A DNA stretch of 40,051 nucleotides from Nesterenkonia alkaliphila (lineage in GTDB: Bacteria; Actinomycetota; Actinomycetes; Actinomycetales; Micrococcaceae), in assembly GCF_009758175.1 (NCBI RefSeq), contig NZ_WRPM01000070.1:1-40051 (forward strand), written 5' to 3'. Of the stretch, positions 7,933-29,865 are shown one piece after another; the stretch's first letter is position 1; every line of letters starts with the position of its first letter. The notes under the pieces were generated by a model, which was not told where the DNA came from, searched no databases, and saw only the letters and a list, made by a program, of their open reading frames with translations. The position numbers were made by a program, and so were the translations under genes.

Positions 7933-9434
7933 CAGGGGCCTGCCTCGGCGTCTTCGTCGTTTTCGAGTGTGGTGATGATCTGATCGAGGTTTCCCAGGAC
8001 CTGCTGGTTCATCTCGATCAGTCGCTGTTGGCCGCGTGCTTCGGCGGCGGTGATGATCTCCACGGTCTGCTTACGATGTTGACGGTGCTCGGGCAGGAAC
8101 TCGGCGGTGGTGATGAACATCGGGCAGCTCAGGCACGCGTTCGCATGCGGGCAGGACTGTTGGACCGGTAGCCCGCAATAGCCGTTGGGTAGGGCCTGGG
8201 TAGCTCGTCCGACGCGCTGTTTGGCCCAGGCCGCCTCAGCCAAGGGGCCGTCCGGGTCGAGGGTGACGGTCTCACCCTGGATATTGACCTTGCGTGCGGC
8301 TTCCCAATGCCGCCGGATCGTGGTGTCACTGAGCCGAGCATAGTGGGCAGTCATGGCGTGGGAGTCGTGATCGAGGATCCGGCGGACCACCTCTTGGGGA
8401 ACATCTTGGTTGATCAATCGGGTGCCCAGGGTGTGCCGGAAGCTGTGGGGAACCACACGGACGGTGTCGCCGTGTTCGTCACGGACATCACAGCGCTTCA
8501 GCCACCGGTGCAGCGCCTTACGGTAGACCCCGTCAGCAACTGGCACGTCACCGTTTCCGTTTCGTGTGGCGCGTGGGAACAGCACCGGCGCACCATCCGG
8601 CCATTCCTGGTGCACGCGGCGACGCTGGGCGGTGATGGCCTCCGTAAGGTCCTCGTCGATGGGCACCAACGCCTCACGTTTCATCTTGTGGTTGAGGTAA
8701 CGCAGGTAGGGGGCACCATCCTGGTCATGTATAACGCAGTCAGTTGGCAACTGGACAGTGTCGGTGATGCGCAGTCCGCAGCGCATCAAGATCAGTGTGA
8801 TCAGCTCATAGGAGGGGTTGTTCCACTTCGCCATGTTCTCCGGGTCCTCCAGCTGGGCCATCACAGCCTCACTCAGCGCCCGGGGCAGCCGCGCGCCCTC
8901 TTTTGGGATGTCTTCGCTGTAGAACGTCACCGTCGAGGGCAGCGAGTCATCCCATCCGTGTTGCCGGATCGTGGTGAAGAACAGGTTCAGCTGACCGATC
9001 AGCATCCGGTGAGTCACGGTGCCGGCGTACCGGGAGTGCACTTCCGCGAGGTAACGCTCCAGCAGTTCTCGGTCCAGGTCGCCTAGCCCCTGAACAGCTG
9101 GGGCGATGTTGGTCAGGAACTGCCCGAAGGAAGTGACCGCACGGGTACCGATGGAGACACTGCCCGCACCAAGACCGGAAGAGAAGCGCCACCTGGCCCA
9201 GCGTTTCGCCAAAGCCTTCAACCAGAACTGTGGGATCCCCTCGAAAGAGACGCGCGCCAGCTGACGGTCTCTGATTCCGAGCTCACGGAGCTGCCAGGTG
9301 TCCTTGTCGTATTCGAAATCCCACGCGCTGGCCCGCCGCGTTGTGTGTCCTCGGTCGCGCTCTGTTCTCGGTGGTTGCTGCGTTGTCAGCGGGAGTGGTT
9401 CGCTCACAGTTTCATCTCTCGGTCGGTGAACCAT
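7932..9434 (-). CDS. Tyrosine recombinase, TnpB-like (Tn554 type)
   Basis: A 500-aa site-specific recombinase. The catalytic set is visible: Arg in LILMRCGLRITD, HSFRH for the H-x-x-R pair, and ILDHDSHAMTAHYARL carrying the second His and the nucleophilic Tyr. The C-terminal extension holds a Cys cluster (CGLPVQQSCPHANACLSCPM) that probably binds zinc, as in TnpB of this group. The start at 9434 overlaps the end of the TnpA-like gene by 31 bases. It acts on the DNA ends of the element together with TnpA. Confidence 0.88.
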   Translation of the reverse strand: MVHRPRDETVSEPLPLTTQQPPRTERDRGHTTRRASAWDFEYDKDTWQLRELGIRDRQLARVSFEGIPQFWLKALAKRWARWRFSSGLGAGSVSIGTRAVTSFGQFLTNIAPAVQGLGDLDRELLERYLAEVHSRYAGTVTHRMLIGQLNLFFTTIRQHGWDDSLPSTVTFYSEDIPKEGARLPRALSEAVMAQLEDPENMAKWNNPSYELITLILMRCGLRITDTVQLPTDCVIHDQDGAPYLRYLNHKMKREALVPIDEDLTEAITAQRRRVHQEWPDGAPVLFPRATRNGNGDVPVADGVYRKALHRWLKRCDVRDEHGDTVRVVPHSFRHTLGTRLINQDVPQEVVRRILDHDSHAMTAHYARLSDTTIRRHWEAARKVNIQGETVTLDPDGPLAEAAWAKQRVGRATQALPNGYCGLPVQQSCPHANACLSCPMFITTAEFLPEHRQHRKQTVEIITAAEARGQQRLIEMNQQVLGNLDQIITTLENDEDAEAGP

Positions 9435-10513
9435 CCCGCTTCCTTCAGTGACTTGCGGGCGTCCTCGGCGCTGAGGTGTCCGTAGACCGCGTAAGTGGTG
9501 GTGATATCAGCATGACCCAGGAGCTTGGAGACCACCTCTATCGAAACCCCGTCACGCAGCATCTTGGTCGCGGCAGTATGCCGGTACCAGTGCGGATCGA
9601 AATCAATCCCGGTGCGCTGCCGTAGCCGCTTCACCAGGTCATAGACCGCCGTATACGTCAACGGATGGCCGTAGGGTCGGCCCCAGAGGTTGACGAAGAC
9701 ATAGTCAGAGTCCAGGTCGCCGTACTCCAGGTGAAGATAATCAGCATAGAGCCGGACAAGCTCTGCACTCACCGGGATAGTCCGCCGGTTCCGTGACTTG
9801 GACCGGGCACCGTTGTCATTGACCCGAGGCCGCACCGTGATCTGGGCCTCGGCTGCAGCGATATCCTCATGCCGCAGCCCCAGCGCCTCCCCGATCCGCA
9901 TCCCGGTGTCAAAGAGTACGGCGAAGAGGAATCGGTCGCGTAGATGGTCACAGGCATCAAGTATCGCCTGGGCTTCAGCGGTGGTGAGCACACGGGGAAG
10001 CTTGCGCTCGGCTCTTAGCGAGATGGTCCGCCGTGGCTGCGGGGCGCTCTTGCTGATGTGGTGCAAAAACGGCTTCCACCCCGAGCTTCGTCTTCCGGGT
10101 GGCTGCCATGTCCTGAGCAGTTCTCCCAGGTCGATGCCGTGGCGGGCAGCGTGCTGATAAAACGCGCTCAGCGCGGAGAGCTTCCGGTTGACCGTCACCT
10201 CAGTGCAGTGATGCCCCACCGACGGCAGGATCGAGACCTTTCCCTCGCGTAGCCCGGGCGGACGGCGCAGCCAGGCCACGAACTCTCCGATGTTCTCCAA
10301 ATGCACCGCACGCCAATCCAGGCCCTCAGCAGCCAGGAACTCAAACCAATCCTTCAAATCATGGGCGTAAGCTTTGACCGTATTCGGTGACCGCTCAATC
10401 TGGGTCAAATACGCCAAATACCGATCGACCGCAGCCACCGGGGCACCATCACCGCCCAGCACCGTCCACGACTCCAGCCCATCGACAGGAGAAACTACAC
10501 GCTGGACGGTCAC
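9404..10513 (-). CDS. Tyrosine recombinase, TnpA-like (Tn554 type)
   Basis: A 369-aa site-specific recombinase. The N-terminal SAM-like core-binding domain (YLAYLTQIERSPNTVKAYAH) is followed by the catalytic domain with DTGMRIGEALGL (Arg), HWYRHTAATKML (H-x-x-R) and LLGHADITTTYAVYGHL (His and Tyr nucleophile). The GTG at 10513 is chosen since GGGAGG lies 4-9 bases upstream; a longer frame to 10657 lacks a ribosome site. It is the first gene of the trio, near one end of the element, as in Tn554. Confidence 0.88.
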   Translation of the reverse strand: MTVQRVVSPVDGLESWTVLGGDGAPVAAVDRYLAYLTQIERSPNTVKAYAHDLKDWFEFLAAEGLDWRAVHLENIGEFVAWLRRPPGLREGKVSILPSVGHHCTEVTVNRKLSALSAFYQHAARHGIDLGELLRTWQPPGRRSSGWKPFLHHISKSAPQPRRTISLRAERKLPRVLTTAEAQAILDACDHLRDRFLFAVLFDTGMRIGEALGLRHEDIAAAEAQITVRPRVNDNGARSKSRNRRTIPVSAELVRLYADYLHLEYGDLDSDYVFVNLWGRPYGHPLTYTAVYDLVKRLRQRTGIDFDPHWYRHTAATKMLRDGVSIEVVSKLLGHADITTTYAVYGHLSAEDARKSLKEAGWFTDREMKL

Positions 10514-10601
10514 CTGTCCTCCCGGCGGGGTATTGTGCGCGCAAGCGCCAGCGACTGCTTCTGGCGTGCCGGTAGCATGCTGCGGTGCGGATGCGCCGCC
10601 C

Positions 10602-10637
10602 AATGACGAGCGACGGTGAGGGAGGCCAATCGTCATT
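10602..10637. repeat. Inverted repeat near the TnpA-side end
   Basis: AATGACGA (10602-10609) and TCGTCATT (10630-10637) are perfect inverted copies 20 bases apart, in the 140-base gap between the TnpA-like start and the end of mqo. It could be a recombinase binding site at the end of the Tn554-type module or a terminator of mqo. There is no T-run. The role is inferred from position only. Confidence 0.4.
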
Positions 10638-10653
10638 CGCCGCGCGTCGGGGC

Positions 10654-12153
10654 TCATCCGAGCCTGTCCGGCCTAGATGTGAGATCGAGGGCACTGGCAG
10701 TCCGTTCGAAGCTCGCGCTTACGTCGTCCGCGTCCCACGTGGTCCTCTCGAATCCTGGGACCGCGGTTGCGATCGTGCTTTTCCAGGTTCTCTGCCATCG
10801 ATCGGTAAAGCACTCTCTGAGGAGATTAAGCATGATCGGAACAGCGGTTGAGGCCCCTGGTGAGGCACCAAGTAGCCCGGAAATTGAATGGTCCGCGTTG
10901 GTAACCACTTCCGTTCCTTGACGGAGGACACCGATGTTTTTCTTGTCGGGCGTGACCAGTTGCGCGCGTTGACCAGCGAGGATGAGCTCCCACTGTTCGA
11001 ACGCCGCCGAAGGGTAGAACCGTTGCAGCTGGGCGAATTTTTTCTTCGGGCTGGCGGCAAGCTCTTTGATCAGGTAGCGCACTAGCGACAGGTTCTGGAG
11101 GCCTGCGGCTGTGATGACATGGAGGTTGTGCCACCGGAGGGTCGTGAAGAAGTCAGTGAGCTTGCCATGCTTGAGTAGTTTCGTGCTGAACGTCGCGTAT
11201 GGGCCGAAAAGGAGATGGCTTTGGCCCTCAACGATTCGCTTGTCGAGATGCGGGACTGACATCGGTGGGGCACCTATCGCTGCTTGGCCGTAGACTTTAG
11301 CGTCGTGCCTGACGGCGACCTCCGGGGTTGAACACCGGTAGAACGCCGCACCGACAGGTAGGACTCCATATCCGCGGACCTCGGGCAGACGCGCGCGCTG
11401 GAGCAGTCGCAGAGCGAATCCACCGGCACCGACGAAGACATGCCGTCCCTGGATCGTGAACCGCCCACGGGGAGCACTCCTGCCTGATACGAGCCAGCGG
11501 CCACCCGGTTGCTGACCCAGTGAACTTACGTCGTGACCGAGTAGGACCTTCCCGCCTCTGTCGGTGATGATGCTGGTGAGCGCACGGGTCAAGGCACCGA
11601 AGTCAACGTCGGTGCCATGAACGTGGCGAGTTGCGGCGATCGGCCCATCATCGACTCGCCCTTCCATGATCAGAGGTGCCCAGTTGGCTATCCTCGCTGG
11701 ATCTTCGGAGTATTCGAGTCCAGCGAAGAACGGATCGGTAATCAGCGTCTGATACCGCTGCCGCAGATAGTCCACGCCCCGCCTGTCGAACACCACATCC
11801 ATATGCGGACTGGTATGGATGAACTCGCTGGGATCGAGCAGGCCTGACTCCACCAGGTGCGCCCACCATTGTCTGGTGATGTGGAATTGCCGGGCGATCT
11901 CGGCCGGTTTGCTGCCATCAGTCGGGTCGGGCATGTAGTTCAGCTCGCTAAACCCAGAGTGACCGGTGCCGGCGTTGTTCCAGGGGTCGCTGCTCTCGGT
12001 CGCAAGTGAATTTGACCTCTCCAGCAGAACGATGCGCCAATCGGGCTGAAGAAGAGTGATCATCGCTCCCAAAGTCGCCGACATGATCCCACCGCCGATG
12101 AGGACGATGTCGGCCTCTTCGACATTGTCTGCTGTTCGCCGTCGTCCGCCCAT
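10654..12153 (-). CDS. mqo: Malate:quinone oxidoreductase
   Basis: A 499-aa FAD-dependent, membrane-associated enzyme that oxidises malate to oxaloacetate and passes electrons to quinone, linking the TCA cycle to respiration. The FAD-binding start ADIVLIGGGIMSATLGAMI lies at about residues 14-32. Family blocks WNNAGTGHSGFSELNYMP, VFVGAGGFALRLLQ, HLLFGPYATF and LLGASPGASTAVPIML are all present. Length fits. The ATG at 12153 is preferred; an open frame further upstream runs into the divergent LysR promoter. Divergence from a LysR gene suggests regulation by it. Confidence 0.95.
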   Translation of the reverse strand: MGGRRRTADNVEEADIVLIGGGIMSATLGAMITLLQPDWRIVLLERSNSLATESSDPWNNAGTGHSGFSELNYMPDPTDGSKPAEIARQFHITRQWWAHLVESGLLDPSEFIHTSPHMDVVFDRRGVDYLRQRYQTLITDPFFAGLEYSEDPARIANWAPLIMEGRVDDGPIAATRHVHGTDVDFGALTRALTSIITDRGGKVLLGHDVSSLGQQPGGRWLVSGRSAPRGRFTIQGRHVFVGAGGFALRLLQRARLPEVRGYGVLPVGAAFYRCSTPEVAVRHDAKVYGQAAIGAPPMSVPHLDKRIVEGQSHLLFGPYATFSTKLLKHGKLTDFFTTLRWHNLHVITAAGLQNLSLVRYLIKELAASPKKKFAQLQRFYPSAAFEQWELILAGQRAQLVTPDKKNIGVLRQGTEVVTNADHSISGLLGASPGASTAVPIMLNLLRECFTDRWQRTWKSTIATAVPGFERTTWDADDVSASFERTASALDLTSRPDRLG

Positions 12154-14123: not shown

Positions 14124-15485
14124 TCAGCCAACGCGGCGTTGCTTCCACTCGTCGAAGTCGACAACTGTCGCGTCACCGGCGGTTGCTTCTTCGATGTCCA
14201 TTACTGACTGCGGATCAGGGTCCTCTGGCGGCTTTGGCTCAGCCCAGAGGGCATTGCCGACCTGCGCTGCGACGTCACGCTTCATGTCGTCGAGCACGTG
14301 CTGGTACCGGTCCAACATGGCCCGCTGGCTCCAGCCCATGAGGTCCATCACGACACGGGCATCGATGCCGAGCGTCAGCATCATTGTGGCTGAGACGTGC
14401 CGTGCGTCATGAAGCCGGCGGTGGCCAACTCCGCACTCCTCCAGGAGTGCTTCCCACCGCCTCCAATCACTTTCAGGACGGTGCGGACGACCGTTCAGCT
14501 GGCAGAAGACAAGGTCAACGGTGACGCCGTTCGGATCTGTATATTGCTGACGCCGCTCACCCTCAGCTGCATTCAGGGCCAGATGCTCTGCATGAAGTTT
14601 CTTCAGGTGCTTCAGCACCTGCTTGGGGACGGGGACACTCCGTCGCCCAGCCTGCGACTTTGGAGTTCCGAAGAAGAGGCCGCCACCATGCCTGGATGGG
14701 CAGAGGTGCGGTCCCTTCGCGGGGCAGCGGCTACGGTCATCACATCCGTGCCGCCATTTCTTGGGGTAGAGAGTCCGACGAAGGTCAATTTGACCGCTGT
14801 CAAGGTCCACTGCATCCCAGCCCAACCCCAGAATTTCACCTTGCCGGGGCCCATAGGTGAGCGCGATCATCCAGCGTGCGGCCTCAGATGGCGGCAATGT
14901 CTCTGCATGAGCGATGATCTTCCGAGCATCTTCTGGGGTGAAGGTTGGCGGCACAAAGGCCTCGTCGGAGCGGCCCGAAGGTGCATCAACCTTCAGCAGG
15001 GGATTGGAGCCGAGCCTTCCCCGCTTCACTGCTGCTTTGAAAGCGCCGTTGAGGATGCGGTGAAGCTGGAGCACTGAAGCAACGGCCTTTCCCTCAGCCC
15101 GCTTACGTGCGTAGAAAGTCTCAATATGCTCAGGGTTGAGCTTGTCCAGCTTGGTTCGGGCCAGTTTTGTGTTTTTCAGCCAGGCGATCTTCGCCTCGTA
15201 GCCCTCCAGGGTGCTGTCCCTCAACGTCTCCTTCTTGATGACGTAGAGCCAATGGTCCAGCCATTCTTGGAGAGTGGGGGCGGAACCGATGGTGACGGCG
15301 CCGTCTTCGACTTGACGGATGAGGTCGCGTCGGGCTGCAGTGCAGAGGGCCTGAGTTCTGCCGTAGACCGGCTTTCGGATGCGCTTTCCGGTAATCGGGT
15401 CAGTGCCGACGGTGACATCGGCCCTCCAGCGTCCTTTGCTGACTTGGTAAGGCTTAGAGCCCTCCCCGTTTGCTCGACGTCCCAT
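14124..15485 (-). CDS. int: Tyrosine integrase
   Basis: A 453-aa phage/plasmid-type integrase. An N-terminal arm-binding domain (GRWRADVTVGTDPITGKRIR) precedes a SAM-like domain (TLQEWLDHWLYVIKKETLRD) and the catalytic domain with TYGPRQGEILGL (Arg), RLHDARHVSATMM (H-x-x-R) and MGWSQRAMLDRYQHV (Trp in the second His place, then the Tyr nucleophile). A Cys-containing insert (HGCDDRSRCPAKGPHLCPSR) interrupts the catalytic domain, as in many actinobacterial integrases. The ATG at 15485 overlaps the XRE stop codon (TGATG), so the two are co-translated. It presumably integrates the element spanning about 13.4-30 kb. Confidence 0.93.
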   Translation of the reverse strand: MGRRANGEGSKPYQVSKGRWRADVTVGTDPITGKRIRKPVYGRTQALCTAARRDLIRQVEDGAVTIGSAPTLQEWLDHWLYVIKKETLRDSTLEGYEAKIAWLKNTKLARTKLDKLNPEHIETFYARKRAEGKAVASVLQLHRILNGAFKAAVKRGRLGSNPLLKVDAPSGRSDEAFVPPTFTPEDARKIIAHAETLPPSEAARWMIALTYGPRQGEILGLGWDAVDLDSGQIDLRRTLYPKKWRHGCDDRSRCPAKGPHLCPSRHGGGLFFGTPKSQAGRRSVPVPKQVLKHLKKLHAEHLALNAAEGERRQQYTDPNGVTVDLVFCQLNGRPHRPESDWRRWEALLEECGVGHRRLHDARHVSATMMLTLGIDARVVMDLMGWSQRAMLDRYQHVLDDMKRDVAAQVGNALWAEPKPPEDPDPQSVMDIEEATAGDATVVDFDEWKQRRVG

Positions 15486-15874
15486 CACTCACCTCGCTGC
15501 TGAACCCACTGGCGGTAGATCTCTCGGATTTCTGCTTCATCGGGAGATACTTCGGACGGAGGAGTCATGTCACGAAGGAACTGGACGACGAAGTCTGAAG
15601 CGAAGCGCTCGAGGTGCTTCTCTGTCTCGTAAATCTGCAGTGCACGAAGGAAAAGCCCGTGTGCTCCCAGGCTGAGAACATCTCCCACTTCCTCGAGATC
15701 GTTCACGTTCCAAGTGACGGCGTCATTTAAGCGTTCAGAGACATAACTGCGTGACTTGCCTAGACGCTCTGCGAGCTCGCTTTGGGTGATCTTCCGGTCG
15801 TTGATTTCTGAGCGGACAAGCTTCGACACGGCCTTCGACAGCGGCCCTGGGGGCAACGATGGTCTCGACTTCAT
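15485..15874 (-). CDS. XRE-type HTH regulator coupled to the integrase
   Basis: A 129-aa protein. The HTH lies at about residues 24-55 (DRKITQSELAERLGKSRSYV followed by SERLNDAV), with a helical C-terminal half ending YRQWVQQRGE. ATG 15874 is favoured over ATG 15904, which has no ribosome site, though GTGGA upstream is also weak. The frame stays open a long way upstream without coding character. It overlaps the integrase start by one base. A copy of the TCCGGACACT motif lies 66 bases upstream of the start, so autoregulation is plausible. Confidence 0.78.
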   Translation of the reverse strand: MKSRPSLPPGPLSKAVSKLVRSEINDRKITQSELAERLGKSRSYVSERLNDAVTWNVNDLEEVGDVLSLGAHGLFLRALQIYETEKHLERFASDFVVQFLRDMTPPSEVSPDEAEIREIYRQWVQQRGE

Positions 15875-15939
15875 GGATTCCACTGTAATGGGCTCTGCAG
15901 CCATTTGGCAGCAGATATGAGAGTGAGACTTGAATGTTT

Positions 15940-15949: not shown

Positions 15950-16149
15950 TTGTAGCGAAATTAGGGGGCATGGGGCATTCCCGGGCATCCTGAAGTGACG
16001 CCAAAAGCGACATTTCAAATAGTGAGACTGAAGATAGAAGTCGGACAGCGTCTCCGGGTGTCCCCGCTTCCGCCTTCGGAAACTTGGCCTCGCGATAACG
16101 GTGCCCCACGGATCCCAACGACCAACGGCTCCTGAATTTCCCCGCGACC

Positions 16150-16646
16150 GTCTCTGCAGTCCCCAGCTGCAGAAGAGCTCGTGAACAGAGGAGAGCCCAG
16201 CACGCGATGTCGCCGGCCCCGTCACCTCGGCTGGTCCGGCGGCACCATCTGTATTCCGTGCACGCTGGGATGGATACAGCGGCGCGTAGTTGAAGAAGTC
16301 GTCTAGCGCGCGACTGCTGTAGAGACAGAGGAGGCACTGAATACCATCGGCTCCAGCCTCGGCAACTCGGTGGTACTCGTTCACCCACCAGTCCGAAACG
16401 ATCCTGGTGTGGTCGGAGCAAAACAGCAGTTCCGCGATTGAGTCTGAGTTGATCTCCCCTTCGAGGCAGTGATGGTGGATCACGATGAACGCGGCTGGTG
16501 CTGTCACATCGCTCTGCCTTGGGGAATTCGCGGTTGAGAGCCGATCGCCAATTGGGGTACTCGCAACGGAACGTGAGCTGATCGAATATCCCGGCTTCCT
16601 TCTGAGTGATCGCATTCATCAGTGAACCTCTTCCACATTGCTGCAT
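16150..16646 (-). pseudogene. Possible decayed or frameshifted small gene
   Basis: On the minus strand, AGGAG followed 9 bases later by ATG 16646, or a second ATG at 16619 with AGAGG upstream, opens a frame whose first 45 or so residues look coding (KEAGIFDQLTFRCEYPNWRS). After about 16510 this frame turns into Arg/Ser-rich shadow, while the next frame takes over with TAPAAFIVIHHHCLEGEINS and DWWVNEYHRVAEAGADGIQ to about 16200. That suggests one gene with a frameshift, or two short overlapping ones. No family is recognised. Coordinates are approximate. Confidence 0.3.
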
Positions 16647-23967: not shown

Positions 23968-24084
23968 ACCGAGGCCACCTTGCGCTGATGGGAGGCAAGC
24001 CGCTGCACCTCTTCAGGGGAGCGTCGATCGCCGAGAGGCGACCCCTTTTTTCCTTTCCCAGAGCCCAGTGTGATCCCCGGGCGT

Positions 24085-24438
24085 TCAGCGCTCCTCTTCC
24101 CATTGCGGTAGGTAGTCCGGGTGGTCGGCATGGGCTGAGGCCAGCTCCAGCAGTACTGTCTCCATGTAGTCGGTCGCTGCGGCGTACTGCGGGGAGTCGT
24201 GGTGCTCGACCTCCAGGTAGGCCTCGATGATCCGCCGCTTGGCCACACACTCAGCCAGCACCCGCTGGTAGTCCACCGCGACAACGAGTCGGTCCCTGTC
24301 CTGGTCGGCCGGGGTCGCCCAGGTGCAGAACCTGGTCTCCTCTATCGGGGAGTCGTTTCTCACGAAGCCGGCAGTGGCTTCGTCCTCCTCGATCCGGGCG
24401 AGCAGGAACGCGACCAGCGGGTTATTGTTCTCGGTCAC
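24085..24438 (-). CDS. DUF6221-family protein
   Basis: A 117-aa protein starting NPLVAFLLARIEEDEATA and ending HADHPDYLPQWEEE, with the internal VLAECVAKRRIIEAYLEVEH: the signature of DUF6221, a family of unknown function frequent in actinobacterial phages and integrated elements. GTG 24438 is preferred over ATG 24456, because AAGGAG lies 6 bases before the GTG and within the longer frame. It lies 27 bases downstream of the 223-aa gene. Confidence 0.82.
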   Translation of the reverse strand: MTENNNPLVAFLLARIEEDEATAGFVRNDSPIEETRFCTWATPADQDRDRLVVAVDYQRVLAECVAKRRIIEAYLEVEHHDSPQYAAATDYMETVLLELASAHADHPDYLPQWEEER

Positions 24439-24465
24439 TGCTGTCTCCTTGGTCATTTTCTGCCT

Positions 24466-25137
24466 TCACTGCTTCTCGGGTCTGCCCGTGCCCCAGCTTT
24501 CGCCGCCGGCACGGGCGGTACGAACCGCTGAGACCCAGGCGTCGGCGTCGATGAGCTGCCGCTGAGCGCTTCTGCTTCCTTGCTCAGGGAACCGGCCGCC
24601 GGGCTCCCCCACTGATTCGACTCGGCTGAGATAGGGCTCCGTGGGAAAGACCGCTTGGTAGTGCTGATCCCAGGCTGCGGCGCTGATCACCTCAAACACG
24701 CGCTCACACCTGATCCTGCGGGCCTCCTCCACACTCATCGGCCACCACTCGATCCGCTCCAGGTCAGCGATCAGCTCCGCCTCGCTGGAGTACCGCTTGG
24801 ACTCATCCGGCCGCTGAGCGATCGCCGCACCATAGTCCAACCGCCAGTGCTCACCCTCCTTGGTCAGTCTGGTCGGCGCGGTCCACGGGGTCTGGCGCGG
24901 CGGGTACATGCCCGGCCTGCGCTCTCTCAGATCGGCTGGAACAGTGTCGCCCCACTCCCGGGTTCCGCCGTAGCCCACCGGCGCTGTCGGTGGCCAGAAC
25001 CACTCCAGGGGCTCCTCGTCGGCGACGTCGAGGTCGGTCACCGCCCAGCCCCGGGAGAGCAGCGTGGTCTCCACGTCGTCCTTCAACAGACGGATGGAGT
25101 CCTTGATGAACCGAATCTCCTTCTCGGGATCTTCCAT
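24466..25137 (-). CDS. Hypothetical 223-aa protein
   Basis: A soluble 223-aa protein, Trp- and Pro-rich in the middle (PLEWFWPPTAPVGYGGTREW, RQTPWTAPTRLTKEGEHWRL). The N-terminus (MEDPEKEIRFIKDSIRLLKD) is helical. The ATG at 25137 has GGGG 4 bases upstream. It is the first gene of a minus-strand set with DUF6221. No family is recognised. Confidence 0.65.
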   Translation of the reverse strand: MEDPEKEIRFIKDSIRLLKDDVETTLLSRGWAVTDLDVADEEPLEWFWPPTAPVGYGGTREWGDTVPADLRERRPGMYPPRQTPWTAPTRLTKEGEHWRLDYGAAIAQRPDESKRYSSEAELIADLERIEWWPMSVEEARRIRCERVFEVISAAAWDQHYQAVFPTEPYLSRVESVGEPGGRFPEQGSRSAQRQLIDADAWVSAVRTARAGGESWGTGRPEKQ

Positions 25138-25235
25138 GACCCCAGTCTCCCACCGGGCACTGACTTGGAAGACAGACACAGAAGTGTCTGCAGAACATGT
25201 CCGCATTCCTCCCAACACAGGAGAAGGAGGGGCCC

Positions 25236-25613
25236 ATGGACGACATGCCAGCGCGGCCCCGGTGGACTATAAGTTCGGGCCCGTCTTCACCGACGAATGG
25301 CTACCCGGGCCAACCCAGCCTCTCCATCCCAGGACCGTGGCCCAGACATCCCATCGCTAAGAGGTACCCGAGTGGAGGTCATATCCTCCAACTCCCAGAT
25401 ACCCCTGGATCCCTCAGCGATGACAAATCAGACTCCGAGCACGTCGGCGGTCATGCGACACGCCGGCCCCCAAGACTCTTGACCCTGTCGATGGATGTCC
25501 ATATAGTGGACGGCACGTTGATCGTCGAAGGGCATCGCGAGCCGACTACTATCGACGATCAACTGCGGGGTGACCCCCACGAACCGACTTCTCGACTCGA
25601 CCCCACGAACTGA
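25236..25613 (+). CDS. Possible small gene after a strong ribosome site
   Basis: AAGGAGGGG lies 4 bases before ATG 25236, which opens a 125-codon frame. The protein sequence has low coding character (rich in Pro, Ser, His), and a different frame in the first 120 bases (VDYKFGPVFTDEWLPGPTQ) looks better. The frame also runs across the promoter and leader of the replication operon, which speaks against it being a full-length gene. A short leader-type peptide is conceivable. Confidence 0.2.
   Translation: MDDMPARPRWTISSGPSSPTNGYPGQPSLSIPGPWPRHPIAKRYPSGGHILQLPDTPGSLSDDKSDSEHVGGHATRRPPRLLTLSMDVHIVDGTLIVEGHREPTTIDDQLRGDPHEPTSRLDPTN
25479..25511 (+). promoter_or_regulatory. Promoter and overlapping operator of the replication operon
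   Basis: TTGACC (25479-25484) and TATAGT (25502-25507) are 17 bases apart, a near-consensus promoter. GTCCA-TATAG-TGGAC (25497-25511) is a palindrome centred on the -10 box, and ATGGA-TG-TCCAT (25491-25502) overlaps it, giving three TGGA half-sites in alternating orientation. This suits a repressor that shuts off the downstream HTH/replication genes. The start of transcription is expected near 25514. Confidence 0.65.
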
Positions 25614-25682
25614 TCTTCATACCCCGCGACCGTTCTTTGCGGTTTCGCCGCAAAGAGAAGATCAGAACGAAAGGTTCGTGGG
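25517..25682 (+). promoter_or_regulatory. Structured leader of the replication operon
   Basis: The roughly 169-base leader holds ordered inverted repeats: GTTGATCGTCGA (25517-25528) with TCGACGATCAAC (25552-25563); GGGG-TGA-CCCC (25567-25577); CTGATCTTC (25610-25618) with GAAGATCAG (25657-25665); TCTTTGCGG (25634-25642) with CCGCAAAGA (25648-25656). GTTCGTGGG (25674-25682), directly before the ATG, can pair with either of two identical CCCACGAAC copies (25576-25584 and 25602-25610). The ribosome site GAAAGG (25669-25674) touches this arm. It looks like an RNA switch or attenuator controlling translation; a double-strand origin or protein-binding array is an alternative. Confidence 0.55.
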
Positions 25683-25901
25683 ATGCAGCGCCAAGCGTCT
25701 CCGCAAACACTCTTCACCGTGACCGAAGCGGCCACTGCCCTCGGTGTGAAGAAAGACTACATCTACGCCGTCATCCGAGACGGCGACCTCCCAGTCATCT
25801 ACCTGGGCCGAGGCTCTCGGCCCGTCATGCGCGTGCGCCCATCCGACCTGCAGCGCTTTATTGACTCTCGTCGCCTCGAAGGTGGGGTGCGCGATGACTG
25901 A
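25683..25901 (+). CDS. Excisionase-like HTH_17 protein
   Basis: A 72-aa DNA-binding protein. FTVTEAATALGVKKDYIYAV followed by GDLPVIYLGRGSRPVMRV is the HTH_17 (MerR-like) excisionase fold. The ATG at 25683 follows the structured leader. It is the first gene of the replication operon and overlaps the next gene by 8 bases. It may act as a directionality factor, copy-control or replication accessory protein. Confidence 0.8.
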   Translation: MQRQASPQTLFTVTEAATALGVKKDYIYAVIRDGDLPVIYLGRGSRPVMRVRPSDLQRFIDSRRLEGGVRDD

Positions 25902-26541
25902 GGAAGCCGACGGGAGGCCTTTTGTCCAGAAGCCTGTCAACATCGTTCGTCCCATCAGTGATGCTGCGTACTTGCAGTTGGATGATGCTCTCCTCGACGC
26001 CGGGATAAGGAATGGGCGCATCCGGAATACGGTCTTCGATGTTCTGGCAGCCATCACTGATACCCATAGCCACGATGGCCCGGCAGCAAAGGTCCACCTC
26101 AGCGTGATCGGTGAATGCCTGAAGATCGAATACACAGGAATGACCTATCCGTCTCAGGACGAAGGTTTTCGATTGCTGACCCGGACAGTCGTCCGGTATG
26201 CCGTGGAAAACCCAATCGCAGGCGACGCTGACACGCGCTCCATGAAGGAGTGGCGACAAGGCCTAGAGATGGCGCTCTTCCACAAGATGTATGCCCTGAT
26301 GGAGACAAAGCGCAGGATCGGGGCCGGCAGGTTTAACTACCGCTACGACGACGACTTGGAGGACGAGGACGAGCCGGAGGAGCAGGAAGCTCCGGACGGC
26401 CCGTCCACGGGAGCGCATGAGGATGCTCTTGTCACCGAGATACAGAACCTTCGTGACTCTGCAGTGGAAATCGAGGAGATCGCGAGTATCACAGGGGCCA
26501 GCCGTAAGGAGATCGAACGAGTGCTGGGACCTGCTTCGTGA
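25894..26541 (+). CDS. Hypothetical protein of the replication operon
   Basis: A 215-aa protein. The middle (MEWRQGLEMALFHKMYA-like segment, read as KEWRQGLEMALFHKMYALME) is helical, followed by a very acidic linker (DDDLEDEDEPEEQEAPDG) and a C-terminal HTH-like end (EIEEIASITGASRKEIERVL). ATG 25894 overlaps the previous stop by 8 bases and has GGTGGGG upstream. Position suggests a role in replication initiation or copy control, with a DNA-binding tail. No family is recognised. Confidence 0.7.
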   Translation: MTEEADGRPFVQKPVNIVRPISDAAYLQLDDALLDAGIRNGRIRNTVFDVLAAITDTHSHDGPAAKVHLSVIGECLKIEYTGMTYPSQDEGFRLLTRTVVRYAVENPIAGDADTRSMKEWRQGLEMALFHKMYALMETKRRIGAGRFNYRYDDDLEDEDEPEEQEAPDGPSTGAHEDALVTEIQNLRDSAVEIEEIASITGASRKEIERVLGPAS

Positions 26542-26680: not shown

Positions 26681-29446
26681 ATGGACGAGCAGCAACAAGC
26701 TCTCCGAGACACAGCATATGAACTGGTCGCCGCCGGGTTTCGGATCCTTCCTCTCGGTAAGGACAAAATGCCCCTGACGCCATGGTCAGACGCCAAGTAC
26801 AAGTTTGAGGGCGACGAGACCATTGAGTTGTGGTTCGGTGAGGACCAGCAGGATGATGATTGGCTCTCTGGGCGTCACCCGGAATCGTCAGGGCCGGCGC
26901 AGGGCATCGCGATCGTCACGGGGGAACCCTCAGGGTTCGTTGAGATGTGGGAGCTGGAAGGCCCACACCGGGATAAAGTCTCAGAGCTCAACAGGCTTGC
27001 CCAGGAGCACGGCGAGCGAACGGAAGATGTCTGGCGACGCATCCGGTCCGGCTGGATGGAGCAGAGTCCTTCGGGCGGATATCACTGGATGGTCAGGCTC
27101 ACCGATTGCGAGGAGATGCCGCGCAGCGAAAGCCTGGCGGAGGACCCAGAGCATAAGAAAGTTCAAGTCGCTGAGGTCAAGGCTGCCAAGGCGAACACGG
27201 CCATGGCTCCTAGCTATGGGCACGCCCACTCGACGGGCAAGCCTTATAAGACGCTGACAGGCGGGCCGGATACCATCGCCGAAATAACGATGGAGGAGAG
27301 GCGCCTTCTTCGCGCCCTCTTCCAGAAACTCGATCGCCGCCCGGCCAAACCCAAGCGTGAGGTGGGGTTTCAAGTAGCTCGTGAGAGAAACGTCGGTGAC
27401 CCAGAGTTGCCTGGCGATGACTATAACCAGCGTGCCGACTGGCAGGAGATCTTGGATGCCGATGGGTGGGAATATGTGCGTTCCACCGGCAATGAGGATC
27501 ATTGGCGACGTCCTGGAGCTTCCACCAATGGTGTCGACGCTGCGGTCTACACGCACCCGGACAAATACGACGAAGAGAAAACCTTCTCACTTCTGTATGT
27601 GCCCTCAGGAGGGGCGCTGTCCCAGTTTGGCCTGCCTACCGAGGACGGGAAGGGGCAGGAAAAGACAACCTATACAAAGTTTGAATACTATGTGTTTTCT
27701 CGCCACAGCGGGGACTTCTCCGCTGCGGCGAAAGCACTCAGTGAGCTCGGGTACGGCGAACGCAAGAAGGCTGCTTCCGCATCCCGTGTGGAGTACCCTG
27801 TGGCCTCTCCGCAGGGCGCGGCGACAGGTACTGACGGTGTCGTCATTGACCTGGCTGCCAAACGAGCAGAGAAAGACTCCGTGCCGGGGCAGCAAACCAA
27901 CGGGGCAACTCTGGAGCGGACTGACGATGCAAATGCCAACCGTTTCGCCTCCGATCATTGTGAGGTCATCCGTTTCTCCCCCGCCCACGGGGCATGGGTG
28001 CACTGGAACGGCGTGCGATGGGTTCCTCAGCCTGGCAAAGGCGGGATCGAGCGCGAGCTTGCCAAACAGACTGCCCGAGCACTGCCCACAGAGGAGTTCG
28101 ACAACCAAGGCAAACCTGACCAGAGCGCCTCCAACGCTCTCGCCGCGCACAAAAAGTATTCACTGTCGCGCCAAGGGATCAACAACATGCTCTCCATGGC
28201 CAACAGTTTGCCGCAGCTTCGAGTCGATGACGACAGGTTCGACAACCATCCCTGGGAGCTCAACACCCCCGGTGGAATACTGGATCTACGGACAGGACAG
28301 CTGCTGCCTCATGATCCCACCAAGATGCACGTAAAGATTGCAGGCGTCACTCCTGACTTTGAGGCAGACCGCACTCTCTGGGAGAACTTCCTGCACACCT
28401 CAGTCCCAGACCCAGAGGTGCGCAGGTACCTCAAGCGGCTGGTCGGCCTGACCCTTATCGGCGAAGTCCGAGAGCACCTCATCGTCTTCATCACAGGACG
28501 GTCCGGACGTGGAAAATCCACCTTCGTGGAATCCATCATGACGACCATGGGTGACTATGCAGCAGTTGTCCCCGACGGCATCCTCCTGGAGACCAAGGGC
28601 TCAGACGATGAGGAGACCAAGGCGGTGGCACTCAAGGGCACCCGTTTAGCCCTGATTGATGAGGTCAAGGCCACCGACCGCCTCAACGAGAAACGTGTAA
28701 AGAAGTTCTCGGGCGGAAACACCCTCTCAGCACGGCACCTGTATCAAGAGCATCACAACTTCACCCCGAGTCACACACACTTCCTTGTCGGCAACCATCG
28801 CCCCGGCTTCGACGGCAGCGACGACGCGATGCTTCGAAGGTTGAGGACAATCCCCTTCGACGAGGACATCCCCGATGAGCAGAAGATCCCCAACCTTAAG
28901 GAGAAAATCTTCGGCAATCTGCCGGCTGTCCTCGCATGGGCAGCTGAGGGAGCAGTGGAATATCACAAGGAAGGGCTCGGAGAAATACCGGACCTTGTCA
29001 AAGCCACAACCTCCGACTACGCCGAAGAATCCAACCCGGTGGGCCAGTTCCTCGAGGAGCGTTGCAAGCTCGCTGACGGTGAAACAGTCCTCGTCTCCGA
29101 ATTCCGGGACGCATACGAGATGTGGTGCCAACAGCGCCAACTGCGGCCTCTCGGCGATAAGCGGATGGCCGACGCATTGGAGCGCCACGGGATCAAAGTC
29201 GGGAGCAAAGCACCCAGGACCGCTCAGGGAAGACTCTATGGCGGCGTGAAACTACTCTCCTATGAGGAACGCAAAGCCCAGGCCGCACAGCACAACCAGG
29301 AGCTGGGTTACGACGAGGACCCGCTCACCACACCCCGGCAGTCCAATTCCAAGAAGACGGCTGAGCAGCAACGGAAAAACGGCTCGCCGAAACCGCGCAA
29401 ACCACATCGTCGCCCACCTCGTCGAACCCCTCCACGTCGCAGCTGA
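26681..29446 (+). CDS. Bifunctional primase-polymerase / SF3 helicase (plasmid/phage P4-type)
   Basis: A 921-aa replication protein. The N-terminus (ELVAAGFRILPLGKDKMPLT, about residues 12-200) is a prim-pol domain. The middle carries RFASDHCEVIRFSPAHGAWV and WNGVRWVPQPG, the D5_N/P4 primase-associated region. The SF3 helicase has Walker A GRSGRGKST (about 606-614), Walker B LALIDEV (about 653-659) and motif C FLVGNHRPGFDGSDDAMLRR with the arginine-finger-like end. The tail is basic and disordered. It synthesises primers and unwinds DNA at the element origin. ATG 26681 has AGAAAGG 6 bases upstream. The upstream in-frame ATG at 26624 has no ribosome site. Confidence 0.92.
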   Translation: MDEQQQALRDTAYELVAAGFRILPLGKDKMPLTPWSDAKYKFEGDETIELWFGEDQQDDDWLSGRHPESSGPAQGIAIVTGEPSGFVEMWELEGPHRDKVSELNRLAQEHGERTEDVWRRIRSGWMEQSPSGGYHWMVRLTDCEEMPRSESLAEDPEHKKVQVAEVKAAKANTAMAPSYGHAHSTGKPYKTLTGGPDTIAEITMEERRLLRALFQKLDRRPAKPKREVGFQVARERNVGDPELPGDDYNQRADWQEILDADGWEYVRSTGNEDHWRRPGASTNGVDAAVYTHPDKYDEEKTFSLLYVPSGGALSQFGLPTEDGKGQEKTTYTKFEYYVFSRHSGDFSAAAKALSELGYGERKKAASASRVEYPVASPQGAATGTDGVVIDLAAKRAEKDSVPGQQTNGATLERTDDANANRFASDHCEVIRFSPAHGAWVHWNGVRWVPQPGKGGIERELAKQTARALPTEEFDNQGKPDQSASNALAAHKKYSLSRQGINNMLSMANSLPQLRVDDDRFDNHPWELNTPGGILDLRTGQLLPHDPTKMHVKIAGVTPDFEADRTLWENFLHTSVPDPEVRRYLKRLVGLTLIGEVREHLIVFITGRSGRGKSTFVESIMTTMGDYAAVVPDGILLETKGSDDEETKAVALKGTRLALIDEVKATDRLNEKRVKKFSGGNTLSARHLYQEHHNFTPSHTHFLVGNHRPGFDGSDDAMLRRLRTIPFDEDIPDEQKIPNLKEKIFGNLPAVLAWAAEGAVEYHKEGLGEIPDLVKATTSDYAEESNPVGQFLEERCKLADGETVLVSEFRDAYEMWCQQRQLRPLGDKRMADALERHGIKVGSKAPRTAQGRLYGGVKLLSYEERKAQAAQHNQELGYDEDPLTTPRQSNSKKTAEQQRKNGSPKPRKPHRRPPRRTPPRRS

Positions 29447-29865
29447 GCTGCATCCCGGCGCATAATACCTGACCCCATGGGCGCCGGAATACCGGGGCTC
29501 CCCAAGTAGCGCTCTGCTAAAGGTCAGGGGTTGCTCACTGCGTTGAAGCTCCCGGGCGCCCTGTAGGAGCGAACGAGCGCGGAGTAAACCCTACCCGTCG
29601 TGATACTCAAGAACACCTGGAGTGTGCACTCTCGTCGAGGGCCCCGAAATGCTCCTCAATGTCTGTTGTACCGCCGCCACTGATGAGTGAAGCCTCTGCA
29701 GCCGCCGGAGTGACGGGATAGAGGTCAACTGACAGATCTGGAGGGCGTCCCACCGCTGGTCTCCCCATGAAGTGGCATGGGTTGCCTCCTACCCACTTCC
29801 AAAAGACGCCCGGCAAGAGGATGAAGCCTCCCGAGGAAAGCAGCTTTGGGGAAATGCGGTACCGG
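29447..29865. other. Gene-free stretch after the primase-helicase gene
   Basis: No convincing gene. A minus-strand frame (29607-29927) has some protein-like segments but overlaps the TGTCA cluster and lacks a ribosome site. GCTCC/GGAGC arms near 29548-29570 may make a weak hairpin. Confidence 0.4.

Follow-up and report, generated by a model that had tools for sequence, protein, structure and literature searches.

RNA control of prophage or satellite dormancy has been described for the enterobacterial elements P4, P1/P7 and Gifsy-1 (PMC4825925 and PMC12197685). In P4, the CI RNA keeps the replication genes off by premature transcription termination, and the CI stretch is flanked by its two complements, seqA and seqC (PMC4825925). 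The c4 RNA of P1 and P7 is described as an antisense RNA on the ant mRNA with a ribosome site as its target (PMC12197685). For IsrK of Gifsy-1, an inactive long message, a terminator and a short form which opens the long form in trans are described (PMC4825925).

The leader considered here lies in a window of 40,051 bases (the whole stretch of DNA that was analysed) from a Nesterenkonia host and precedes an operon with an excisionase-like and a primase/helicase gene. It resembles P4 in being the replication-gene leader of an integrated phage-like element in which two copies are complementary to a third stretch, with keeping the replication genes off as the expected role. The primase/helicase operon is indeed found downstream. 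In contrast to P4, the complement GTTCGTGGG is located at the ribosome site, after both copies of CCCACGAAC, and the scan of 25400–25950 found no intrinsic-terminator-like site. The latter result also argues against the simple attenuator that the original prediction had offered as one option. With c4 the leader shares short complementary stretches aimed at the ribosome binding site region, but its pairing is predicted in cis. With IsrK it would have in common that the long form of a prophage transcript is not translated; a terminator and a short form, however, were not seen. A further likeness, of a general kind, is to Shine-Dalgarno-sequestering leaders such as that of tisB, which have a structured 5' leader with a paired ribosome site (PMC7708055); the gene context differs. 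We consider it rather probable that the leader is a cis-acting RNA and that it blocks the start of translation in a phage-like early operon at the first gene.

The alternative closest to the described systems is an antisense-type control as in P4 CI or P1 c4, where a processed leader RNA would pair in trans with the start-side arm of the same message and thereby confer immunity to related elements. The genetic place is that of P4, a replication-operon leader with complementary repeats (PMC4825925), and the target would be a ribosome site as for c4 (PMC12197685). Against this, no processed RNA is known, a second promoter-like site is missing from 25400–25950, and the complement is found downstream of both copies rather than between them. 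Moreover, none of the Rfam families reached its gathering score anywhere in the window. For the leaders alone nothing credible was returned at E ≤5: only HgcC for the window leader (15.4 of 50 bits, E 0.15) and none for the leader of the diverged relative, genome G283. Hence, antisense control appears unlikely. If a start-locking leader on an excisionase-primase operon is indeed conserved in a Micrococcales genus, the principle of RNA-controlled dormancy would extend to actinobacterial elements.

Layout of the leader and its operon

The features referred to in the text are the following (positions in the window, strand in brackets).

14127–15485 (−): tyrosine integrase, 89% identical to the G283 integrase
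15488–15880 (−): HTH_3/XRE-like repressor, 73% identical to the G283 repressor
15995–16200 (+): probably a second, decayed copy of the leader together with its promoter region, aligning with the G283 promoter-leader region
25479–25507 (+): sigma-70-like promoter TTGACC-17-TATAGT, the only promoter-like site in 25400–25950
25497–25511 (no strand): dyad GTCCA-TATAG-TGGAC lying over the −10 box, a possible operator for a repressor (from sequence)
25517–25528/25552–25563 (+): 5' hairpin with a 12-pair stem (sequence, helix search)
25564–25572 (+): possible pseudoknot strand TGCGGGGTG, complementary to TACCCCGCG at 25620–25628; tentative
25576–25585 (+): left arm copy 1 (CCCACGAACC), part of a near-repeat of 25599–25618
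25602–25610 (+): left arm copy 2 (CCCACGAAC), the copy that aligns with the G283 left arm
25610–25618, partner 25657–25665 (+): middle helix, 9 pairs (helix search)
25622–25633 (+): block CCCCGCGACCGT in the internal loop, found unchanged in G283 and the probable decayed copy
25634–25642/25648–25656 (+): inner hairpin with a 9-pair stem (helix search and structure-fitted alignment)
25669–25682 (+): Shine-Dalgarno-like GAAAGG continuing into the start-side arm GTTCGTGGG (from sequence)
25683–25901 (+): excisionase-like HTH gene, 72 aa (Pfam HTH_17, E 1e-10)
25894–26541 (+): gene U, with its ATG inside the 3' end of the HTH gene
26681–29446 (+): primase/helicase (D5_N) gene, likely start 26681 rather than 26624

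The promoter-like site is on the sense strand, and in the same scan of 25400–25950 shuffled sequences contained 0.0 sites on average. Transcription is predicted to start at about 25514–25517, which places all repeats and stems inside the predicted transcript. The leader of G283 likewise follows a promoter-like site, TTGACG-17-TATTGT, with equal spacing. The dyad at the equivalent place in G283 has different letters (ATCTC...GAGAT). Such a difference would be the expected pattern for operators of diverged repressors, and both dyads are possible candidate operators.

The original prediction had described two copies of CCCACGAAC upstream of GTTCGTGGG directly before the start codon, together with three further perfect stems, and all of this was borne out by the exact positions. 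On the + strand of the window, CCCACGAAC occurs at 25576 and 25602 only and GTTCGTGGG only at 25674–25682, directly before the ATG at 25683; the three stems comprise 12, 9 and 9 pairs. When up to one mismatch is allowed, 12 matches are found in the window against 12.5 expected, and the exact triple of two CCCACGAAC and one GTTCGTGGG is the sole excess over chance. When the 166-nt leader was shuffled 20,000 times with its dinucleotide content preserved, 31 of the shuffled sequences had one perfect complement of their final nine bases and none had two; any 9-mer present twice together with its own complement, at whatever place, was seen in 25. A set of 260 ORF starts, taken from 16 loci and the window (ORFs of at least 150 aa in six frames, many of them spurious), contained one case with a single such complement and none with two.

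The folding energy of 25517–25688 is markedly low (z = −5.7; 0 of 200 shuffles equally stable). The score of the closing helix, which joins a left arm to the start-side arm, was matched at the start codon in one of 2000 shuffles. With spurious ORFs included, it was attained at 2 of the 260 ORF starts and a score of 12 at seven. Within the Shine-Dalgarno sequence of the window, A25670–A25672 are mostly unpaired in the predicted fold.

In the window and in G283, where CGGGGATC/GATCCCCG are the counterpart, the loop block could form a pseudoknot with a GGGG stretch upstream of it. Both pairings can arise by chance (209 and 120 of 3000 shuffles, respectively), and none was found in the probable decayed copy. 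Two further candidates were dropped: a conserved leader peptide IFxPRDRxL, for which the differences are not enriched at third codon positions (by eye), and a G.T/C.A bias as proof of RNA, for which the cases are too few.

Downstream, the HTH protein is similar to the PHROG family 'excisionase and transcriptional regulator' (E 5.9e-7), and gene U matched no family in Pfam or PHROG. The start of the primase gene was placed at 26681 because comparison with G283 favours this position. U and the HTH gene overlap in both elements. The primase gene of G283 also overlaps U; that of the window is separated from U by a gap of 139 nt.

The diverged leader of G283 and a proposed mechanism

At its locus L044, G283 carries an element whose proteins are 67–69% (HTH), 53–56% (primase) and 24% (U) identical to those of the window. 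The gene order is contiguous: integrase, divergent repressor, leader, HTH gene (xis), U and primase. Integrase, divergent repressor, excisionase and replication gene thus form one module, that of a temperate-phage-like integrative element. In the window, integrase and repressor are located about 9.6 kb from the leader.

The G283 leader has different letters but the same plan, with a predicted helix over the Shine-Dalgarno sequence and ATG, an inner hairpin and the block CCCCGCGACCGT. The best helix of the entire G283 leader, TGTGAACGGATCCT/AGGATCTGTTCATG, has 14 pairs including three G.U and spans the Shine-Dalgarno sequence through the ATG; its score at the start codon was matched in 4 of 2000 shuffles. 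The Shine-Dalgarno-like AGAAGG, at the same distance from the ATG as in the window (by eye), is mostly inside predicted helices. The folding energy of this leader corresponds to z = −3.1 (1 of 200 shuffles equally stable).

A covariance model (R1) that was trained on the leaders of the window and of N. sedimenti detects the G283 leader at 28.9 bits. In the structure-fitted alignment all eight modelled pairs of the closing helix are kept in G283, six of them through changes on both sides. In the inner hairpin four of nine pairs are changed on both sides and one is not paired. In total, 10 of the 26 modelled pairs are changed on both sides and 94.7% of the cells are paired, compared with 43–49% in controls with slid partners. 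None of 500 shuffles reached these values, and one of 500 equalled the number of pair types; the count of covarying pairs depends, however, on the alignment having been fitted to the structure. In an alignment by sequence only, the outer strands are placed by their letters, and two covarying pairs with an unfavourable covariation term result. The 5' hairpin has equal size in G283, but four of its 12 pairs are unpaired and two changed on both sides, a covariation score within chance (reached by 55 of 500 shuffles). The register of the middle helix is shifted in G283, TCTTCG pairing with CGAAGA.

The original prediction had looked to homologous operons for paired arms with compensating changes in both copies of the arm. 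The closing helix is kept in G283, and in the structure-fitted alignment copy 2 and the G283 arm show compensating changes (6 of 8 pairs); for copy 1 no counterpart was found in G283. Thus, a predicted helix over the Shine-Dalgarno sequence and/or the start codon is retained despite sequence change. The intact leader is known from four genomes that amount to only two independent sequences, since two of the genomes are near-identical to the window. On these two sequences, the G283 helix, found independently, and the fitted alignment support a predicted start-sequestering leader RNA.

The near-identical leaders are those of N. sphaerica and N. sedimenti, two genomes that the genus search counts as the same genus; both arms are present and 4 of 166 bases differ from the window. 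Two of the differences affect the 3' side of the 5' stem, where one gives a U.G pair and the other, in N. sedimenti, a C.A mismatch; the remaining two are located within the 5' hairpin and in the inner loop. In both genomes a further exact CCCACGAAC occurs some 3.1 kb 5' of the leader. These leaders are too close to the window to be a real test of the pairing or of the two arms.

From these data we propose the following mechanism. The promoter with the dyad over its −10 box would be the target of the XRE-like repressor. Once transcribed, the leader would fold into a long-range helix in which the upstream strand pairs with the nucleotides immediately 5' of the ATG. In the window this helix would mask the end of the Shine-Dalgarno sequence; in G283 it would mask both the Shine-Dalgarno sequence and the ATG. 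In the integrated state, transcripts that leak past the repressor would then be translated poorly. Since U overlaps the HTH gene, it would presumably be silenced together with the latter through translational coupling. We infer that the lock is opened by a trans factor, which may read the internal-loop block CCCCGCGACCGT. A more far-reaching version, with a new RNA family controlling the exit from dormancy in actinobacterial elements, CCCCGCGACCGT docking an element- or helper-encoded RNA or protein as opener and the duplicated strand acting as a tunable second lock, is rather unlikely. The two diverged leaders with their different arms would be a ready system for arm-swap and compensation tests.

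DNA sites, chance and the two left arms

The repeats could instead act as DNA sites, either as operator half-sites of the excisionase-like protein or the repressor or as iterons of a replication origin. Direct and inverted copies are usual for protein binding sites, and origins often precede replication genes. The arrangement of the copies and their place before replication genes fit such a role, and HTH proteins are encoded next door. However, the HTH proteins of the window and G283 are about 68% identical, and yet the letters of the arms differ. Neither motif is repeated more often than expected by chance, whether in the window or across the 19.5 kb surrounding the G283 element. In addition, the three G.T pairs of the G283 helix can be formed by the + strand only. 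Taken together, a role as DNA sites is quite unlikely.

Chance complementarity in a GC-rich leader, kept through recent common descent, was also considered. The small number of genomes (four), the two of 260 ORF starts with an equal helix score and the little covariation in the alignment by sequence only are in its favour. It is at odds with the folding energies of the two diverged leaders (z −5.7 and −3.1) and with their helices, which occupy the same place in both and are rarely matched by shuffles (1 of 2000 and 4 of 2000). The probable decayed copy in the window, after which no HTH-U-primase genes were found by tblastn, also argues against it, as this copy folds no better than shuffles (z −0.48). 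We therefore regard chance as very improbable.

In the original prediction the leader was a structured RNA whose two identical arms compete for the start region. This is supported in part: the structured leader that closes at the start codon recurs in G283; the doubled arm does not. Neither the helix search nor a motif check found a second left arm in the G283 leader. Both arms pair with one and the same start-side strand, and therefore an exchange of arms does not free the start. In 17 of 18 folds of the window and N. sedimenti, the mean unpaired probability of the start-side arm is below 0.07. The remaining fold is the longest one of the window (+300), where this probability is 0.15 and pairing of the start side with one or the other arm amounts to no more than 10% and 23%. 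The predicted energies of the two pairings in 25516–25700 are −75.2 and −74.5 kcal/mol, and in the predicted folds the dominant pairing shifts with transcript length. The two copies sit in a near-repeat of about 20 nt (25572–25591 and 25599–25618); a tandem duplication of the left strand is therefore the simplest origin. The duplicated left arm of the window lineage may thus be read as a redundant strand rather than as a switch. A two-arm riboregulatory switch, in which translation would be turned on or off according to which of the two copies is paired, would profit from the near-equal pairings, their varying balance and a second copy that exceeds chance (0 of 20,000 shuffles), but with the start-side strand occupied by either arm, a single left arm in G283 and a near-repeat that duplication suffices to explain, it is highly improbable.

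Distribution of the leader and its genomic surroundings

R1, run with stricter filters on 395 genomes of the family (E ≤1), gave five matches, namely the four leaders and one in genome G071. The latter (L161 1473–1546, − strand) reaches 20.4 bits with the model R2 (E 0.0046), above the probable decayed copy. This two-hairpin match follows the end of an ORF, and the nearest HTH similarity has an E-value of 0.55; apparently it is an unrelated pair of hairpins. Since R1 missed the decayed copy in its own genome, the number of members is a lower bound. In six genomes of the genus, R2 found the four leaders and weak matches in G228 (17.6 bits) and G283 (16.2 bits).

The pattern CTTCNNNCCCCGCGACCG occurs at 32 places in 30 of the 395 family genomes, four of the places being the known leaders. 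R1 called none of the other 28 places in the same genomes. Twelve of these were scored with R2, and five reached 12–15.7 bits, so that an R2 score in this range proves nothing. In viral contigs the pattern was present in 78 stretches, with two R1 matches of 14 bits (E 4.1) that are not credible.

Searches with the HTH protein gave matches in 6 of the 30 genomes of the genus (E ≤1e-4), in 14 of the 390 from the family (E ≤1e-9) and in 2 of the 376 from the order (E ≤1e-12). None of the ten HTH genes beyond the four leaders has such a leader, as judged from the two best helices at each of up to four nearest ATG/GTG starts, and R2 found none there at E ≤5. At the nearest starts of nine other HTH_17-type genes, the best-scoring helices have at most 8 pairs. 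For L179, which offers no ATG/GTG start, the motif check alone was applied, and in L175 CGCGACC is found at −222 without a helix.

Beyond these genomes, the HTH protein was retrieved from two phage records (50%) and from no plasmid record, and a DNA search of phages and plasmids with leader and HTH gene gave no match at E ≤0.01. The integrase was found in 246 phage records, all below 60% and at best 43%, and in four plasmid records; the repressor in 23 phage records, all below 60%. IMG/VR returned one locus for the primase, one for the HTH protein, five for the HTH alignment and none for the integrase. In the HTH-alignment loci, R2 gave two weak matches in a single locus, away from the HTH gene. 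An 18-base match in L187 is without a model match. Primases of other genera are 33–41% identical, and eight of the nine listed neighbourhoods contain other gene sets (by eye). Arthrobacter phage Karkharias has a partly similar order, with integrase and HTH gene divergent from HTH genes. In titles and the first parts of abstracts on neighbouring topics, an incomplete coverage of the literature, no description of the leader RNA was found.

The probable decayed copy at 15995–16200 stands directly before the repressor gene of the window. It contains CCCCGCGACCGTCTCT, the inner hairpin and a short closing helix GGCTC/GAGCC over AGAGGAG, and no promoter reaches the scan threshold in this segment. 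R2 gives it 14.7 bits (E 0.47), not above the unrelated loci picked by motif. Its identity as a decayed leader copy is probable and is derived from its place beside integrase and repressor.

Several insertions and neighbouring genes were noted in passing. Upstream of the leader, the window contains a segment of 1.46 kb (23991–25451) with a DUF6221 ORF and an unknown ORF of 250 aa; N. sphaerica and N. sedimenti lack this segment at the corresponding junction. N. sphaerica has an extra stretch of about 1.7 kb (L033 8898–10618) shortly 3' of the primase gene, equivalent to position 29521 of the window; it is missing from the window and from N. sedimenti. A second, diverged primase gene, 39% identical to that of the window, is present in G283 (L044 15930–18416) and starts 12.5 kb after the first, past a region shared with the window. 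On the − strand of the window, two overlapping tyrosine-recombinase genes (7935–10657) directly follow a malate:quinone oxidoreductase gene. In N. sedimenti a weak tRNA match (L180 8073–8132; 30 bits, cut-off 29) is located about 1.5 kb from the integrase gene and is a possible attachment site.
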